Positions 42,581 to 55,619 of a stretch of DNA of 64,000 nucleotides are shown one piece after another. Source of the DNA: Burkholderiales bacterium. Lineage in GTDB: Bacteria; Pseudomonadota; Gammaproteobacteria; Burkholderiales; Burkholderiaceae_C. The stretch lies in contig JACRPO010000005.1 of the NCBI GenBank assembly GCA_016223165.1, positions 1-64,000 on the forward strand, written 5' to 3'. A program made the translations under genes and the position numbers. Position 1 is the first letter of the stretch. Every line of letters starts with the position of its first letter. Below the pieces are notes generated by a model. It was not told where the DNA came from and did no database searches. It saw only the letters and a program-made list of their open reading frames with translations.

Positions 42581-42652
42581 AGGCGTGTCGATCGCCTGCC
42601 GGTCGCCTGCCGGTGCCTGCGGGTGCATGCGGGCCCAGGCGGCGGCCGGCAA

Positions 42653-42847
42653 ACGTCTTCAGGGCGGGGTGTGATTCCCCACCGGCGGTAAGCGGCGAGC
42701 CAACGGCACGAGCCGAGGCGAACCGCGAGCCCGCGAGCGCCCGCGCCGGGCCACCGGCATGGGGTCAGCAGATCTGGTGCGATGCCAGGGCCGACGGTGT
42801 TGCGTGCGGGGTTCGCCTTGCACGCCAAGTCCGGATGAAAGAAGACG
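42653..42847 (+). ncRNA. FMN riboswitch (RFN element)
   Basis: The conserved RFN core is present: TCAGGGCGGGGTGTGATTCC, then CCACCGGCGGTA, and at the 3' end AGTCCGGATGAAAGAAGACG. The closing P1 helix pairs CGTCTTC (42654-42660) with GAAGACG (42841-42847). A long GC-rich variable arm sits in the middle. FMN binding would reduce expression of the ribB gene 120 bases downstream. No obvious T-tract terminator follows, so control is probably at translation. Confidence 0.93.
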
Positions 42848-42968
42848 CGTGGTGGGCGCATCGCGTGCGCCGGGCATGCCCTGCATGGCCGGCAAGCGCG
42901 CGGCGCCGGGCCGCGCATTCCCTGAAACGTCCTTCGGTGCCCATGTCACTTCATCAAGGAGCGTTTCG

Positions 42969-46259: not shown

Positions 46260-47333
46260 ATGCGCAACATCGAGTTCTTTGCCGGCCCGCGCGCCCGTGC
46301 GCACCTGCGCGAGTTCGGACTGCGCCCGCAGGACGTGCGCGTGGTGCCGGCGGCCGCGGGCGGACCCAAGGGGCTCGTGCTCAATCCGCTCGATCGCTAC
46401 ATCTTCGGCCGCTGGCTGGCGCAGAGCAACCAGGTGGTGCACCTCATGGGCGCCAGCATCGGCGCCTGGCGCATGGCCTGCGCCTGCCTGCCCGACCCCG
46501 GGGTCGCGCTGGCCCAGCTTGCCGAGGACTACATCACCCAGCGCTACCCGCATCGGCGGGGCAAGCTGCCCGAGGCGCGGGTGGTGAGCGAGATCTTCGG
46601 CGCCAAGATCGGGCAGCGCCTGGGCGTGCGCGCGGGCGAGGTGCTGGCGAGCCCGCGCTACCGGCTGCATGTCTTCACCAGCCGCGGCCGCGCCTTGCTG
46701 CACCGGCCTGGGCGCATGCGCACGGCCATCGGCTACTTCGGTGCCTACCTCACCAACGCGGCAAGCCGGCGGGCGCTCGGCAGCTTTCTCGAGCGCGTGG
46801 TCTTCAGCGACCCGCGCGACGAGCTGCCCTTCGCACTGGGTGACTTTCGCAGCCAGCGCGCCGTGCTCGACGTGCGCAACCTGGCGCAGGCCATTCTCGC
46901 CAGCTGCACGGTTCCGTTCGCACTGCGGGCGGTGCAGGACGTGCCCGGGGGACCGCCCGGCACCTACTGGGACGGCGGCATCACCGACTACCACCTGCAC
47001 CTGAACTACTCGCAGATGACCGAGGGGCTGGTGTTGTACCCGCACTTCCAGCCGCGCATCGTGCCGGGCTGGCTCGACAAGGCCTGGCACGGGCGCCACC
47101 GCGCCAGCGCGCACCTCGACAACCTCGTGGTGCTGGCGCCGCATCCGGCCTTCGTCGAGCGGCTGCCCAACGCCAAGCTGCCGGACCGGCAGGACTTTCG
47201 CGACCTGCGCGACGACGATGTCGGCCGCGAGCGCATCTGGCGCGTGGCGCTGGCGGAGAGCACGCGGCTGGCGGAGGATTTTGCGCGGGTCGTCGAGCGC
47301 GGCGGGCCGATCGACGCGCAGCCGTTGCCGTAG
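46260..47333 (+). CDS. Patatin-like phospholipase
   Basis: A 357-residue protein of the patatin-like family. The oxyanion glycines are in AAAGGPKGLVLN, the nucleophile Ser in LMGASIGAWRMA (GxSxG) and the catalytic Asp in YWDGGITDYH (DGG/A). The Ser-Asp dyad is intact. The domain runs nearly the whole length, without signal peptide or membrane helix. It would hydrolyse acyl esters of lipids; specificity is unknown. It follows tex by 69 bases containing only short GGCA-rich repeats. Confidence 0.87.
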   Translation: MRNIEFFAGPRARAHLREFGLRPQDVRVVPAAAGGPKGLVLNPLDRYIFGRWLAQSNQVVHLMGASIGAWRMACACLPDPGVALAQLAEDYITQRYPHRRGKLPEARVVSEIFGAKIGQRLGVRAGEVLASPRYRLHVFTSRGRALLHRPGRMRTAIGYFGAYLTNAASRRALGSFLERVVFSDPRDELPFALGDFRSQRAVLDVRNLAQAILASCTVPFALRAVQDVPGGPPGTYWDGGITDYHLHLNYSQMTEGLVLYPHFQPRIVPGWLDKAWHGRHRASAHLDNLVVLAPHPAFVERLPNAKLPDRQDFRDLRDDDVGRERIWRVALAESTRLAEDFARVVERGGPIDAQPLP

Positions 47334-47407
47334 GTTGCGCGTCCGTCGGAGAGGCAGGACTGCTTCCGCTGGGCTTCCGTTGCGCTTTCGTAGCGCCCAG
47401 CGTCGGC

Positions 47408-47413
47408 TACACT
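47408..47413 (+). promoter_or_regulatory. Candidate -10 box of the thrS leader
   Basis: TACACT, in CGGCTACACTCGC, lies 41 bases before the leader-peptide ATG, placing the transcript start near 47420. The best -35-like sequence (TTGCGC at 47380) is spaced 22 bases away, longer than usual. Confidence 0.4.
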
Positions 47414-47453
47414 CGCAGCCCATCGGCCACCTCTCACAAGATCCAGGAAAGGC

Positions 47454-47501
47454 ATGACGGTTATGACACCGCGGACTACGGAGTTCTTTACCGGCACCTG
47501 A
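47454..47501 (+). CDS. Threonine-rich leader peptide of thrS
   Basis: A 15-codon reading frame, MTVMTPRTTEFFTGT, in which six of fifteen codons are for threonine (ACG, ACA, ACT, ACG, ACC, ACC). AGGAAAGG lies two bases before the ATG, a good ribosome-binding site. The stop codon falls in a small hairpin (CCGGC 47491-47495 with GCCGG 47504-47508). An antiterminator/terminator pair follows and then thrS. The layout is that of a classical attenuation leader sensing charged tRNA-Thr. The peptide has no expected function beyond being translated. Confidence 0.8.
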   Translation: MTVMTPRTTEFFTGT

Positions 47502-47506
47502 TTGCC

Positions 47507-47575
47507 GGCCGCGCCATCACGCCTGTCTCACCTCCCTGATGCAAGCAAGCGCGGCCGATACCGCGCTTTTTTCTT
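47507..47575 (+). terminator. Attenuator: antiterminator/terminator switch before thrS
   Basis: The terminator stem pairs AAGCGCGG (47547-47554) with CCGCGCTT (47561-47568), loop CCGATA, followed by a T run (47567-47572) and CTT. Its 5' arm, GCGCGGCC (47549-47556), is also exactly complementary to GGCCGCGC at 47507-47514, just after the leader stop codon. The two pairings exclude one another. A ribosome stalled on Thr codons leaves the upstream arm free and would prevent termination; a ribosome at the stop codon would cover it and let the terminator form. Confidence 0.8.
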
Positions 47576-47615
47576 GCCTACGGCCGCGCCGGCGTAGGCG
47601 AAGGGGGACCGGATC

Positions 47616-49553
47616 ATGTTGAACATCACGTTGCCCGACGGCTCGCGCCGCGGCTTCGAAGCGCCCGTCACGGTGGCCGAGGTGGCGGCCGCCATCGGGC
47701 CCGGGCTGGCCAAGGCCGCCGTCGCCGGCAAGCTTGTCGGCAAGGAGAGCGGCAAGGAGGGCGGCAAGCTCGTGGACCTGAGCCACCGCATCGAGGCCGA
47801 TGCGCAACTGGCCATCGTCACGGAGCGCGACGCCGAGGGCCTGGAGATCCTGCGCCACAGCACGGCCCATCTGCTGGCCTACGCGGTGAAGGAGCTGTTC
47901 CCCGACGCGCAGGTGACGATCGGGCCGGTGGTCGAGAACGGCTTCTACTACGACTTCGCGTACAAGCGCCCGTTCACGCCCGAGGACCTGGCCGCCATCG
48001 AGAAGCGCATGGCCGAACTGGCCGCGAAGAACGAGCCGGTGGTGCGCCGCGTGCTGCCGCGCGACGAGGCGGTGGCGTACTTCAAGAGCCTCGGGGAGCA
48101 CTACAAGGCCGAGATCATCGGCAGCATCCCGGCCGGCGAGGACGTGAGCCTGTATCGCGAGGGCGACTTCGAGGATCTCTGCCGCGGCCCGCACGTGCCG
48201 AGCACGGGGCGCCTGAAGCACTTCAAGCTGATGAAGGTGGCCGGCGCCTACTGGCGCGGCGACCAGGCCAACGAGCAGCTGCAGCGCATCTACGGCACGG
48301 CCTGGGCGACGAAGGAGGAGCTGGCGGCCTACCTGCGCATGCTCGAGGAGGCCGAGAAACGTGACCACCGCCGCCTCGGCCGCGAGCTCGACCTCTTCCA
48401 CATGGAGGAGACGGCACCCGGGCTCGTGTTCTGGCACCCCAAGGGCTGGACGATCTGGCAGCAGGTCGAGCAGTACATGCGCGCCGTCTATCGCGACAAC
48501 GGCTACCTGGAGGTGAAGGGGCCGCAGATCCTGGACAGGAACCTGTGGGAGAAGACGGGCCACTGGCAGAACTACCGGGAGAACATGTTCACGACGGAGT
48601 CGGAAAAGCGCGACTACGCGCTCAAGCCGATGAACTGCCCCGGCCACGTGCTCATCTTCAAGAGCGCCATGCGCAGCTACCGCGAGCTGCCACTGCGCTA
48701 CGGCGAGTTCGGGCAGTGCCACCGCAACGAGCCGAGCGGCGCCCTGCACGGCATCATGCGCGTGCGCGGCTTCACGCAGGACGACGGCCACATCTTCTGC
48801 CTGGAGGATCAGATCCTCGACGAGTGCGTGGCCTACACGGCGCTGCTGCAGAAGGTCTACAAGGACTTCGGCTTCACGGAGATCATCTACAAGGTCGCGA
48901 CGCGGCCGCCGCCGGACAAGCGCGTTGGCTCCGAAGAGCTGTGGGAGAAGGCCGAACAGGCGCTGATGGAGTCGCTGCGCCGCTCGGGCTGCGAGTTCCA
49001 GGTCTCGCCCGGCGACGGCGCCTTCTACGGACCGAAGATCGAGTACACGCTGAAGGACGCCATCGGCCGCGAATGGCAGTGCGGCACGATGCAGGTCGAC
49101 TGGAACACGGCCGAGCGGCTCTCCGGCGAGTACGTCACGGAGACGAGCGGGCGCGCCCACCCGGTGATGCTGCACCGGGCCATCGTCGGCAGCCTGGAGC
49201 GCTTCATCGGCATCCTGATCGAGCAGCACGCGGGCGCGCTGCCCGCCTGGCTGGCGCCCGTGCAGGCGGTCGTGGCCTGCATCAGCGAGGGGCAGGCCGA
49301 CTACGCGGCCGACGTGGCGAAAGCGCTGCAAAAACAAGGAGTTAGAGTCCACCTCGATTTGCGCAACGAGAAGATCACGTATAAAATTCGCGAGCATTCG
49401 TTGCAGAAGGTCCCGTACATCCTCGTCGTGGGCGACAAGGAGAAGGCGAACGGGTCCGTTGCGGTGCGCGCCCGGGGCAACCAGGATCTCGGCGTGATGC
49501 CGCTGGCAGACTTCATGCAGAAGATCGCCAGCGACATCGCCCGGAAGTCCTGA
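47616..49553 (+). CDS. thrS: Threonyl-tRNA synthetase
   Basis: A 645-residue class II synthetase: TGS domain (1-65), editing domain with [11 protein letters not shown] (HxxxH), catalytic core (KPMNCPGHV, the zinc Cys; [37 protein letters not shown]) and an anticodon-binding domain ([16 protein letters not shown]). It charges tRNA-Thr. A short Gly/Lys/Glu repeat, [10 protein letters not shown], is inserted into the TGS domain at about 42-51. First gene of the thrS-infC-rpmI-rplT-pheST-ihfA cluster and the target of the upstream attenuator. Confidence 0.98.
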
Positions 49554-49634: not shown

Positions 49635-50180
49635 GCTACTTTCATGGACCGGCGCGTTCCGAATGCGGAGCGCAAGCACAAGCTCAACCGCGAGATCCTG
49701 GCGCCCCAGGTGCGTCTGAACGGGGTGGACAACGAACCCCTGGGCATCGTGCCCATCCTGGAAGCGCTGCGCATGGCCGGCGAGCTGGACGTGGACCTCG
49801 TGGAGCTCGTGGCCAATGCCGATCCCCCGGTCTGCCGCCTCGTCGACTACGGCAAGCTCAAGTACCAGGAGCAGAAGAAAGCGGCCGAGGCCAAGGCCAA
49901 GCAGAAGGTGATCGAGGTCAAGGAAGTCAAGTTCCGGCCCGGCACCGACGACGGCGACTACAACATCAAGATGCGCAACCTGCGCCGCTTCATCGCCGAG
50001 GACGGCGACAAGGGCAAGGTGACGCTCAGGTTCCGCGGCCGCGAGATCACGCACCAGGACATCGGCATGCGCATGCTCGAACGCATCCGTGACGAGCTCG
50101 CCGATGTGGCGGTGGTCGAACACATGCCCAAGCTCGAAGGTCGCCAGATGATCATGGTGCTGGCGCCGAAGCGAAAATAG
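49632..50180 (+). CDS. infC: Translation initiation factor IF-3
   Basis: A 182-residue IF-3 that binds the 30S subunit and checks start codons. The N-terminal domain contains [21 protein letters not shown], the linker is Lys-rich ([17 protein letters not shown]), and the C-terminal domain contains [16 protein letters not shown] and [13 protein letters not shown]. Start at ATC gives [17 protein letters not shown], as in other Burkholderiales IF-3 proteins, and matches the only good ribosome-binding site. It lies 78 bases after thrS. Confidence 0.95.
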
Positions 50181-55542: not shown

Positions 55543-55619
55543 CGGGGTGTAGCGCAGCCTGGTAGCGCACTTGCATGGGGTGCAAGGGGTCGCGAGTTCG
55601 AATCCCGCCACCCCGACCA
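55543..55619 (+). tRNA. tRNA-Pro (GGG anticodon)
   Basis: A 77-base tRNA. The acceptor stem pairs CGGGGTG with CACCCCG, and the CCA end is encoded. The anticodon stem CTTGC/GCAAG encloses the loop ATGGGGT, giving anticodon GGG, which reads CCC and CCU proline codons. The T loop has the standard GTTCGAATC. The D arm is AGCGCAGCCTGGTAGCGC. Confidence 0.97.

Follow-up and report, generated by a model that had tools for sequence, protein, structure and literature searches.

We analysed a 64,000-nucleotide (nt) window from a Burkholderiales bacterium (GCA_016223165.1, contig JACRPO010000005.1, positions 1 to 64,000), in which the 5' leader of thrS, the gene for threonyl-tRNA synthetase (ThrRS), very probably acts as a transcription attenuator of the ribosome-mediated kind, with thrS transcription predicted to rise when charged tRNA-Thr is scarce. 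The leader region comprises positions 47408-47615 of the forward strand, the strand of all leader elements described below, and is flanked by a patatin-like gene (end 47333) and by thrS (47616-49553; open reading frame (ORF) and Pfam), the presumed target. Comparison with related sequences indicates that the element is real and conserved, and it also gives good support to the class of mechanism. Four features of the class were found together: a short ORF with a ribosome-binding site, cognate codons that are enriched and conserved, an intrinsic terminator between the leader ORF and the gene, and a mutually exclusive antiterminator sharing one terminator arm. In the proposed mechanism, with ample Thr-tRNA the ribosome would reach the leader stop codon and cover region 2, the terminator (3:4) would form, and transcription would end near 47572. 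With scarce Thr-tRNA, the ribosome would stall at the early Thr codons, and region 2, left free, would capture region 3 and let the RNA polymerase enter thrS. Less firmly, when no ribosome is present, region 1 (start codon to codon 5) might pair with region 2 and mask the leader start, again leading to termination.

The leader region opens with a -10-like hexamer, TACACT (47408-47413), part of the presumed leader promoter. Of 77 relatives, 59 have a hexamer of this kind 30-60 nt 5' of the leader ATG (the mean over composition shuffles was 4.4 and the maximum 13), and a stricter sigma-70 promoter scan found none at the leader. The leader frame is preceded by the Shine-Dalgarno (SD)-like AGGAAAGG (47445-47452), and its translation is MTPRTTEFFTGT (47463-47501; 12 codons, five of them Thr). 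A longer in-frame version runs from the ATG at 47454 to the TGA at 47499-47501, with 15 codons and six Thr, and both versions have a common reading frame and a common stop. An SD-like A[AG][AG]GG was found 8-18 nt 5' of the ATG equivalent to 47463 in 75 of the 78 loci compared. An in-frame ATG at the position of 47454 was present in 6 of the 78, and some in-frame ATG up to 9 nt upstream of the conserved start in 19 of the 78. The working frame is probably that of 12 codons with five Thr, since both the SD spacing and the conserved ATG of relatives point to 47463. The first-pass annotation had proposed the 15-codon frame; its reading frame and stop hold, and its start and its sixth Thr codon give way to the conserved start.

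A hairpin surrounds the stop codon (CCGGCA, 47491-47496, with TGCCGG, 47503-47508). Region 2, GGCCGCGC (47507-47514), is the 5' half of the antiterminator, and region 3, GCGCGGCC (47549-47556), is common to the antiterminator and the terminator. Their duplex has the nine pairs suggested for it earlier, counting C47506-G47557, and scores -18.8 kcal/mol, as good a value being reached by none of 100 shuffled spacers. The intrinsic terminator, AAGCGCGG-N6-CCGCGCTT with its T run (47547-47572), has arms at 47547-47554 and 47561-47568, eight pairs, a T run at 47567-47572, and a hairpin energy of -13.1 kcal/mol. It is the single hairpin returned by a terminator scan of 47300-47640 (shuffles, mean 0.3). 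The SD motif, the stop-codon hairpin, the two exclusive pairings and the T run can thus all be read from the sequence at the positions that the first-pass annotation had given them. A second stem, GCCTACG/CGTAGGC at 47576-47599, lies just 5' of the thrS ribosome-binding site; it includes a further GGCCGCGC (47582-47589), which could pair with region 3 too.

Conservation of the Thr codons and of the alternative pairing in relatives was among the tests set beforehand, and both came out in favour of the proposal. For the first, a leader was an ORF of 7-22 codons that starts with an ATG behind an SD motif and in which Thr takes up at least four codons and at least 25% of the total; duplicates of other loci (L033, L037, and L150) were set aside before the counts. 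Of 106 loci, 54 had such a leader 5' of thrS; among 4372 further 260-nt windows taken from those loci, 7 had one. The same test with each of the 19 other amino acids was passed by 0-3 of the 106. A leader-start pattern (MTPRTT type) matched 76 of 110 thrS loci, two of them duplicates of others. Typical leader peptides of relatives are MTPRTTPFATGT, MTPRTTTTPTKV, MTPRTTSEMLTGR, and MTPRTTTTTTSTSTEV. Past codon 5, Thr accounts for 227 of 902 codons in 107 non-redundant leaders, compared with 10/902 and 28/902 ACN triplets in the other frames; this codon table includes the loci L139-L168, fetched by the exact core pattern. The 18-mer GGTTATGACACCGCGRAC occurred in 32 of 399 Burkholderiales genomes, one copy each, and the backward pattern in none; all 30 of the copies fetched (30 of 32, the window's included) lay 113-280 nt 5' of thrS. 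The nearest named ThrRS relatives of the source genome, at 79-82%, include Piscinibacter, Rubrivivax, and Rhizobacter.

The alternative pairings are also conserved. Relative to the leader stop, the best region-2 partner begins between -3 and +10 nt in 91 of the 107 leaders. In the clade of the window, the 2:3 pairing is mostly GGCCGCGC against GCGCGGCN, and in Comamonadaceae-like relatives mostly GTTCGCGC against GCGCGGAC; the duplex falls within the best 5% of shuffled spacers in 47 of 107 leaders. We counted helices on two alignments, A1 and A2, which hold 33/51 and 21/27 members of their groups, the terminator helix on A2 only. The 2:3 helix is paired in 95.8% of alignment cells over both clades (slid versions, 17-53%). 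The 3:4 helix, counted in one clade, is paired in 95.8% of cells, with six double-change cells (0/500 shuffles). The stop-codon hairpin is paired in 88.7% of the Comamonadaceae-like alignment, and both sides have changed in four of its six pairs. The 1:2 helix is paired in 93.5% and 78.4% (slid versions, 13-54%).

Because variation within clades is small, we used an own-partner permutation, in which the pairing of each leader with its own partner is compared with its pairing to partners from other genomes. The permutation leaves shared ancestry in place, and the control pairings have the same ancestry. Over 103 leaders (L050, L051, L139, and L141 stand outside this set, the terminator call having failed or being atypical), the observed values for 3:4 (101 usable), 2:3, and 1:2 were each reached by 0 of 500 permutations, whereas six control pairings (upstream, linker and post-terminator segments, and 1:3) gave 174 to 498 of 500. 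When permutation was confined to three groups, the counts were 0, 1, and 0 of 500. With 62 leaders, 32 of them divergent, 1:2 was reached by 2, 2:3 by 0, and 3:4 by 0 of 2000, and the controls by 424 to 1888, 1:3 being the one at 424. The divergent leaders alone gave 8 for 1:2, 68 for 2:3, 0 for 3:4, and 1778 for 1:3 of 2000; in two of them (L201 and L210) the terminator finder probably took a wrong hairpin. The exclusive pairings that the first-pass annotation had described in the window are therefore borne out in relatives, the terminator being the most strongly co-adapted helix.

Leader codons 2-5 are almost frozen at synonymous positions. The 78 loci behind these counts were selected with the amino acids T-P-R-T fixed and with GGTT and the third codon positions free; loci fetched by the core pattern were excluded. 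Codon 2 is ACA and codon 3 is CCG in 78 of 78; codon 4 is CGA in 45 and CGG in 33; codon 5 is ACT in 72 and ACG in 6; GGTT stands directly 5' of the ATG in 77. In the window, the frozen 19-mer GGTTATGACACCGCGGACT, the leader start codon with codons 2-5, lies at 47459-47477, as seen in the 78 loci and in the 18-mer search of 399 genomes. In the thrS genes of like genomes (102 loci, pattern-chosen ones included), ACA and ACT make up 3.3% and 4.8% of Thr codons, CGA and CGG 2.8% and 12% of Arg codons, and CCG 54% of Pro codons; at 19 conserved degenerate thrS positions the mean top-codon share is 61%.

The leader start codon and codons 3-5 are predicted to form region 1: CGCGRAC and, partly, ATGAC are complementary to region 2. 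In the window, the predicted core is CGCGGAC (47470-47476, within codons 3-5), a prediction that is weak for the window alone. When the real codons 2-5 of 76 leaders were ranked among all their synonymous versions by pairing with their own spacer, their mean percentile was 0.20 (0 is best). Shuffled spacers gave 0.32 (Wilcoxon p 6e-5), and an upstream segment gave 0.39 (p 4e-8). The gain stems from CCG and CGR, and ACA and ACT are unexplained by pairing. Pairing of the leader with the terminator arm (1:3) as the cause of the frozen codons was ruled out by its lack of co-adaptation. The Achromobacter type has GCACGAACT as region 1 and AGTTTTCGTGC as the segment that matches it; a like pairing is thus kept with other letters. 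Region 1, the synonymous lock and the wider range given below (17 of 51 sampled families) all go beyond the first-pass account.

We also modelled the RNA downstream of a ribosome placed at each codon. At equilibrium, the terminator nearly always wins in complete leaders, those of E. coli included: the stop value exceeded the stall value by more than 0.3 in 16 of 103 leaders, and E. coli thrL, hisL, and trpL gave 0.92-0.98 and pheM 0.76-0.96 in every state. In the window, modelled equilibrium terminator occupancy was 0.95 with the ribosome at the stop, 0.37 with a stall at Thr6, and 0.01 with a stall at Thr10. As equilibrium folding hardly separates stalled from unstalled states, we used RNA cut just 5' of the terminator 3' arm and measured the occupancy of region 3 by upstream pairing. 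Mean occupancy over the 103 leaders was 0.43 with no ribosome, 0.71 with a codon-5 stall, and 0.54 at the stop. Relative to no ribosome, the stall gained more than 0.3 in 48 of 103 leaders, and one leader lost. The four E. coli leaders gave 0.12-0.40 with no ribosome, 0.58-0.70 at the stall, and 0.00-0.56 at the stop, the hisL value at the stop (0.56) being no better than the 0.54 of the group. The window gave 0.76 at the codon-5 stall and 0.42 at the stop. The models appear to support the stop-codon step in the window, and in the group no more than partly; for the region-1 step, support comes from the group and the window gives none.

To see how far the system extends, we sampled 50 other Burkholderiales families, taking the region upstream of thrS from one to four genomes in each (84 genomes); four stretches (L116, L117, L131, and L193) had no recognisable thrS start, which left 80 regions. 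Divergent Thr leaders of these families include MFRTSTTTQS, MFRTCTTTWC, MSFRTTTTGTLYLG, MFKRTTTTRISR, MAVRTTTTHP, MQLNRTTTTS, MPRTRTTTGFFSRRG, MRPPTTSFTRLPG, MVPPTTTLGAFTA, and MTPLTTLERLIR, and the Achromobacter and Bordetella petrii loci have a leader of the RTTT..NFRPMSR type. By rule and by eye, and with core-bearing families included, Thr leaders were found in 17 of 51 families sampled (f1, f3-f6, f8, f10, f14, f21-f23, f28, f32, f39, f47, f49, and f51), some with two Thr only. A looser rule that does not require a codon pair (ATG, 7-26 codons, at least three Thr and at least 20%) was satisfied by 23 of the 80 family regions. On their reverse strand, which is matched in composition, it was satisfied by 0 of 80, and among background windows by 73 of 3468; these windows were drawn from near relatives rich in GC, and their composition does not match that of all 80 regions. 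In other orders of the class, 2 of 40 genomes (40 fetched of 73 with a match) satisfied the rule, a level like background, and one of the two overlapped the thrS ribosome-binding site. Judged by these sequence counts, 23/80 against 2/40, the Thr-leader system of thrS looks specific to Burkholderiales and patchy within the order.

An in-frame CGA-ACN pair was present in 23 of 80 family regions, compared with 30 of 3468 background windows and 12 of 80 on the reverse strand, the last count being put down to tRNA T-loops. The Arg-Thr codon pair occurred in 25 of 32 divergent leaders, which were selected partly by a rule wanting a C[GTC][AG]-ACN pair, and this biases their CGA share; in the window the pair is CGG-ACT (47472-47477). 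As CGA-ACT or CGA-ACG, it recurs in the Thr leaders of several families while the remaining peptide changes. A more ambitious interpretation, possible and on present evidence rather doubtful, is an ancient Burkholderiales-wide thrS attenuator with a self-closing region 1 made of start codon and Thr codons, and with the CGA-ACU pair as a ribosome pacing site. As such a self-closing sensor, the start codon and the first Thr codons, acting as region 1, would shut the device when RNA polymerase outruns the ribosome.

A tRNA-Val(GAC) anticodon-loop motif stands just 5' of thrS in 54 of 84 family stretches (L111-L134, L173-L232), and ARAGORN found tRNA-Val in 11 of the 12 stretches tested. In other families, a Thr leader and its terminator often lie between the tRNA-Val gene and thrS.

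Several results weigh against attenuation, or against parts of it. Among near relatives, an MTPRTT-type start is missing from 34 of 110 loci, some of which have another Thr leader, and 7 of 78 leaders have two Thr codons only. The strict T-run rule finds no terminator in 9 of 107 leaders, and two more have a poor one. Covariation of 2:3 within clades is slight (double changes in 2 and 1 cells, reached by 21 and 149 of 500 shuffles). That of 1:2 is not meaningful within clades (score reached by 99 and 500 of 500 shuffles) and is absent within A1. Single 1:2 duplexes fall in the best 5% of shuffled spacers in 22 of 107 leaders and the window ranks 43 of 100, a measure that is weak in GC-rich sequence. 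In the models, a ribosome at the stop codon has a weak effect in the group, with a drop of more than 0.3 from stall to stop in 22 of 103 leaders and in 1 of 27 Comamonadaceae-like ones; ribosome absence in the window leaves region-3 occupancy at 0.76, not lowered; and stalls at Thr2 and Thr5 in the window keep the terminator at 0.93 and 0.92. Finally, the AAGCGCGG hairpin stands directly 5' of thrS with no recognisable leader in Limnohabitans (L055, L059, and L070), in L062, L076, and L088, and in L014, of the window's own genus. Polaromonas L067 retains a leader relic about 150 nt 5' of thrS, in which the start codon has changed and the flanking pairing segments remain. These loci could be explained if attenuation has decayed there or if the hairpin also serves a second purpose.

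The leaderless hairpins and the tRNA-Val genes also speak for an alternative in which the hairpin is the ordinary terminator of an upstream unit, often tRNA-Val, partly read through, with an incidental leader ORF. We consider this improbable: the window has no tRNA upstream, the -10-like hexamer and the SD motif precede the leader, and the Thr enrichment, the fixed frame and the complementarity of regions 2 and 3 would stay unexplained. E. coli thrS is a textbook case of a synthetase gene under the control of its own product, and repression by ThrRS bound to the leader of its own mRNA, the leader ORF being secondary, would suit the same gene here; it would also suit the frozen 19 bases, ACA and ACT in particular, which pairing does not fully explain. 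However, the terminator and the exclusive pairing are not known as parts of the E. coli operator, the frozen stretch is limited to the MTPRTT type, and the Thr codons of other families stand in different sequences. Autorepression is highly improbable. Only a very slight chance is left to a leader ORF that acts on translation alone, lifting thrS by reinitiation or coupling, as proposed for leader ORFs in excerpts of one report (PMC4833913) and in keeping with the nine terminatorless leaders, given that the leader stop lies 114 nt 5' of thrS in the window, probably far for reinitiation, and that no helix is more strongly co-adapted than the terminator.

Ribosome-mediated attenuation of thrS, the reading we prefer, can be set beside known systems. 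E. coli thrL, trpL, hisL, and pheM have the same short leader ORF with control codons and the same exclusive antiterminator and terminator, and their modelled behaviour without a ribosome and with a stalled one is similar; pheM likewise serves a synthetase operon, pheST, beside the thrS cluster. What differs here is the target, thrS, a region 1 that begins at the leader start codon and has frozen codons, and a stop-codon step that is less clear in the models. The E. coli thrS operator and the Bacillus thrS T-boxes both tie thrS output to threonylation capacity; the window differs from the latter, with no T-box match among the Rfam scans of the window, nor of 47330-47640 at E up to 5. Sub-threshold Rfam matches to anti-hemB (19.9 bits), SorY (17.1), and TLS-PK2 (15.6) are far under their gathering scores and were dismissed as chance.

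In Streptomyces lividans, a Thr leader peptide, thrL, is predicted 5' of thrS; in the excerpted account it is leaderless, with two Thr in 18 codons (MKRVRPFLETTPGFVPAR) and one hairpin without a U run, termination being unclear (PMC8079986). By eye, that peptide, as excerpted, has no sequence likeness to MTPRTT. Excerpts of other reports likewise assign leader-peptide attenuation to synthetase genes, with attenuators predicted upstream of Streptomyces trpS and leuS (PMC1262725) and a His leader peptide upstream of Bacillus hisS paralogues (PMC2965389), in each case for other amino acids, genes, and phyla. Our literature search returned no recognised thrS leader peptide in Burkholderiales or Betaproteobacteria, so the first-pass remark of being aware of none stood, with the proviso that one may be listed by Lopatovskaya et al. 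2010, whose subject is attenuators of operons for amino acids and aminoacyl-tRNA. Switches of this kind are known; new to us are the gene it acts on, the group that carries it, and a region 1 with the start codon embedded in it.

A large group appears to meet the problem of E. coli thrS through a leader peptide, which would sense how far tRNA-Thr is charged, and the switch stands ahead of thrS and of the genes for IF3, L35, and L20. The many families with changing peptides and kept Thr codons, together with the lineages that have the hairpin and no leader, form a natural series in which the origin and loss of an attenuator are directly testable. The frozen codons raise the general question of what decides the choice of control codons in attenuation: speed, RNA pairing, or the two together.

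By ORFs and Pfam, the gene order after the leader is thrS, infC, rpmI, rplT, pheS, and pheT. On the same strand as thrS lie infC (IF3; 49644-50180), possibly co-controlled, rpmI (L35; 50300-50506), and rplT (L20; 50542-50898). Thr starvation might raise the output of these three genes too, as the first-pass annotation had suggested. A look by eye 5' of pheS showed no pheM-like leader. Elsewhere in the window, Rfam places a flavin mononucleotide (FMN) riboswitch at 42651-42850 (76.3 bits), and a tRNA-Pro (ggg) lies at 55543-55619.
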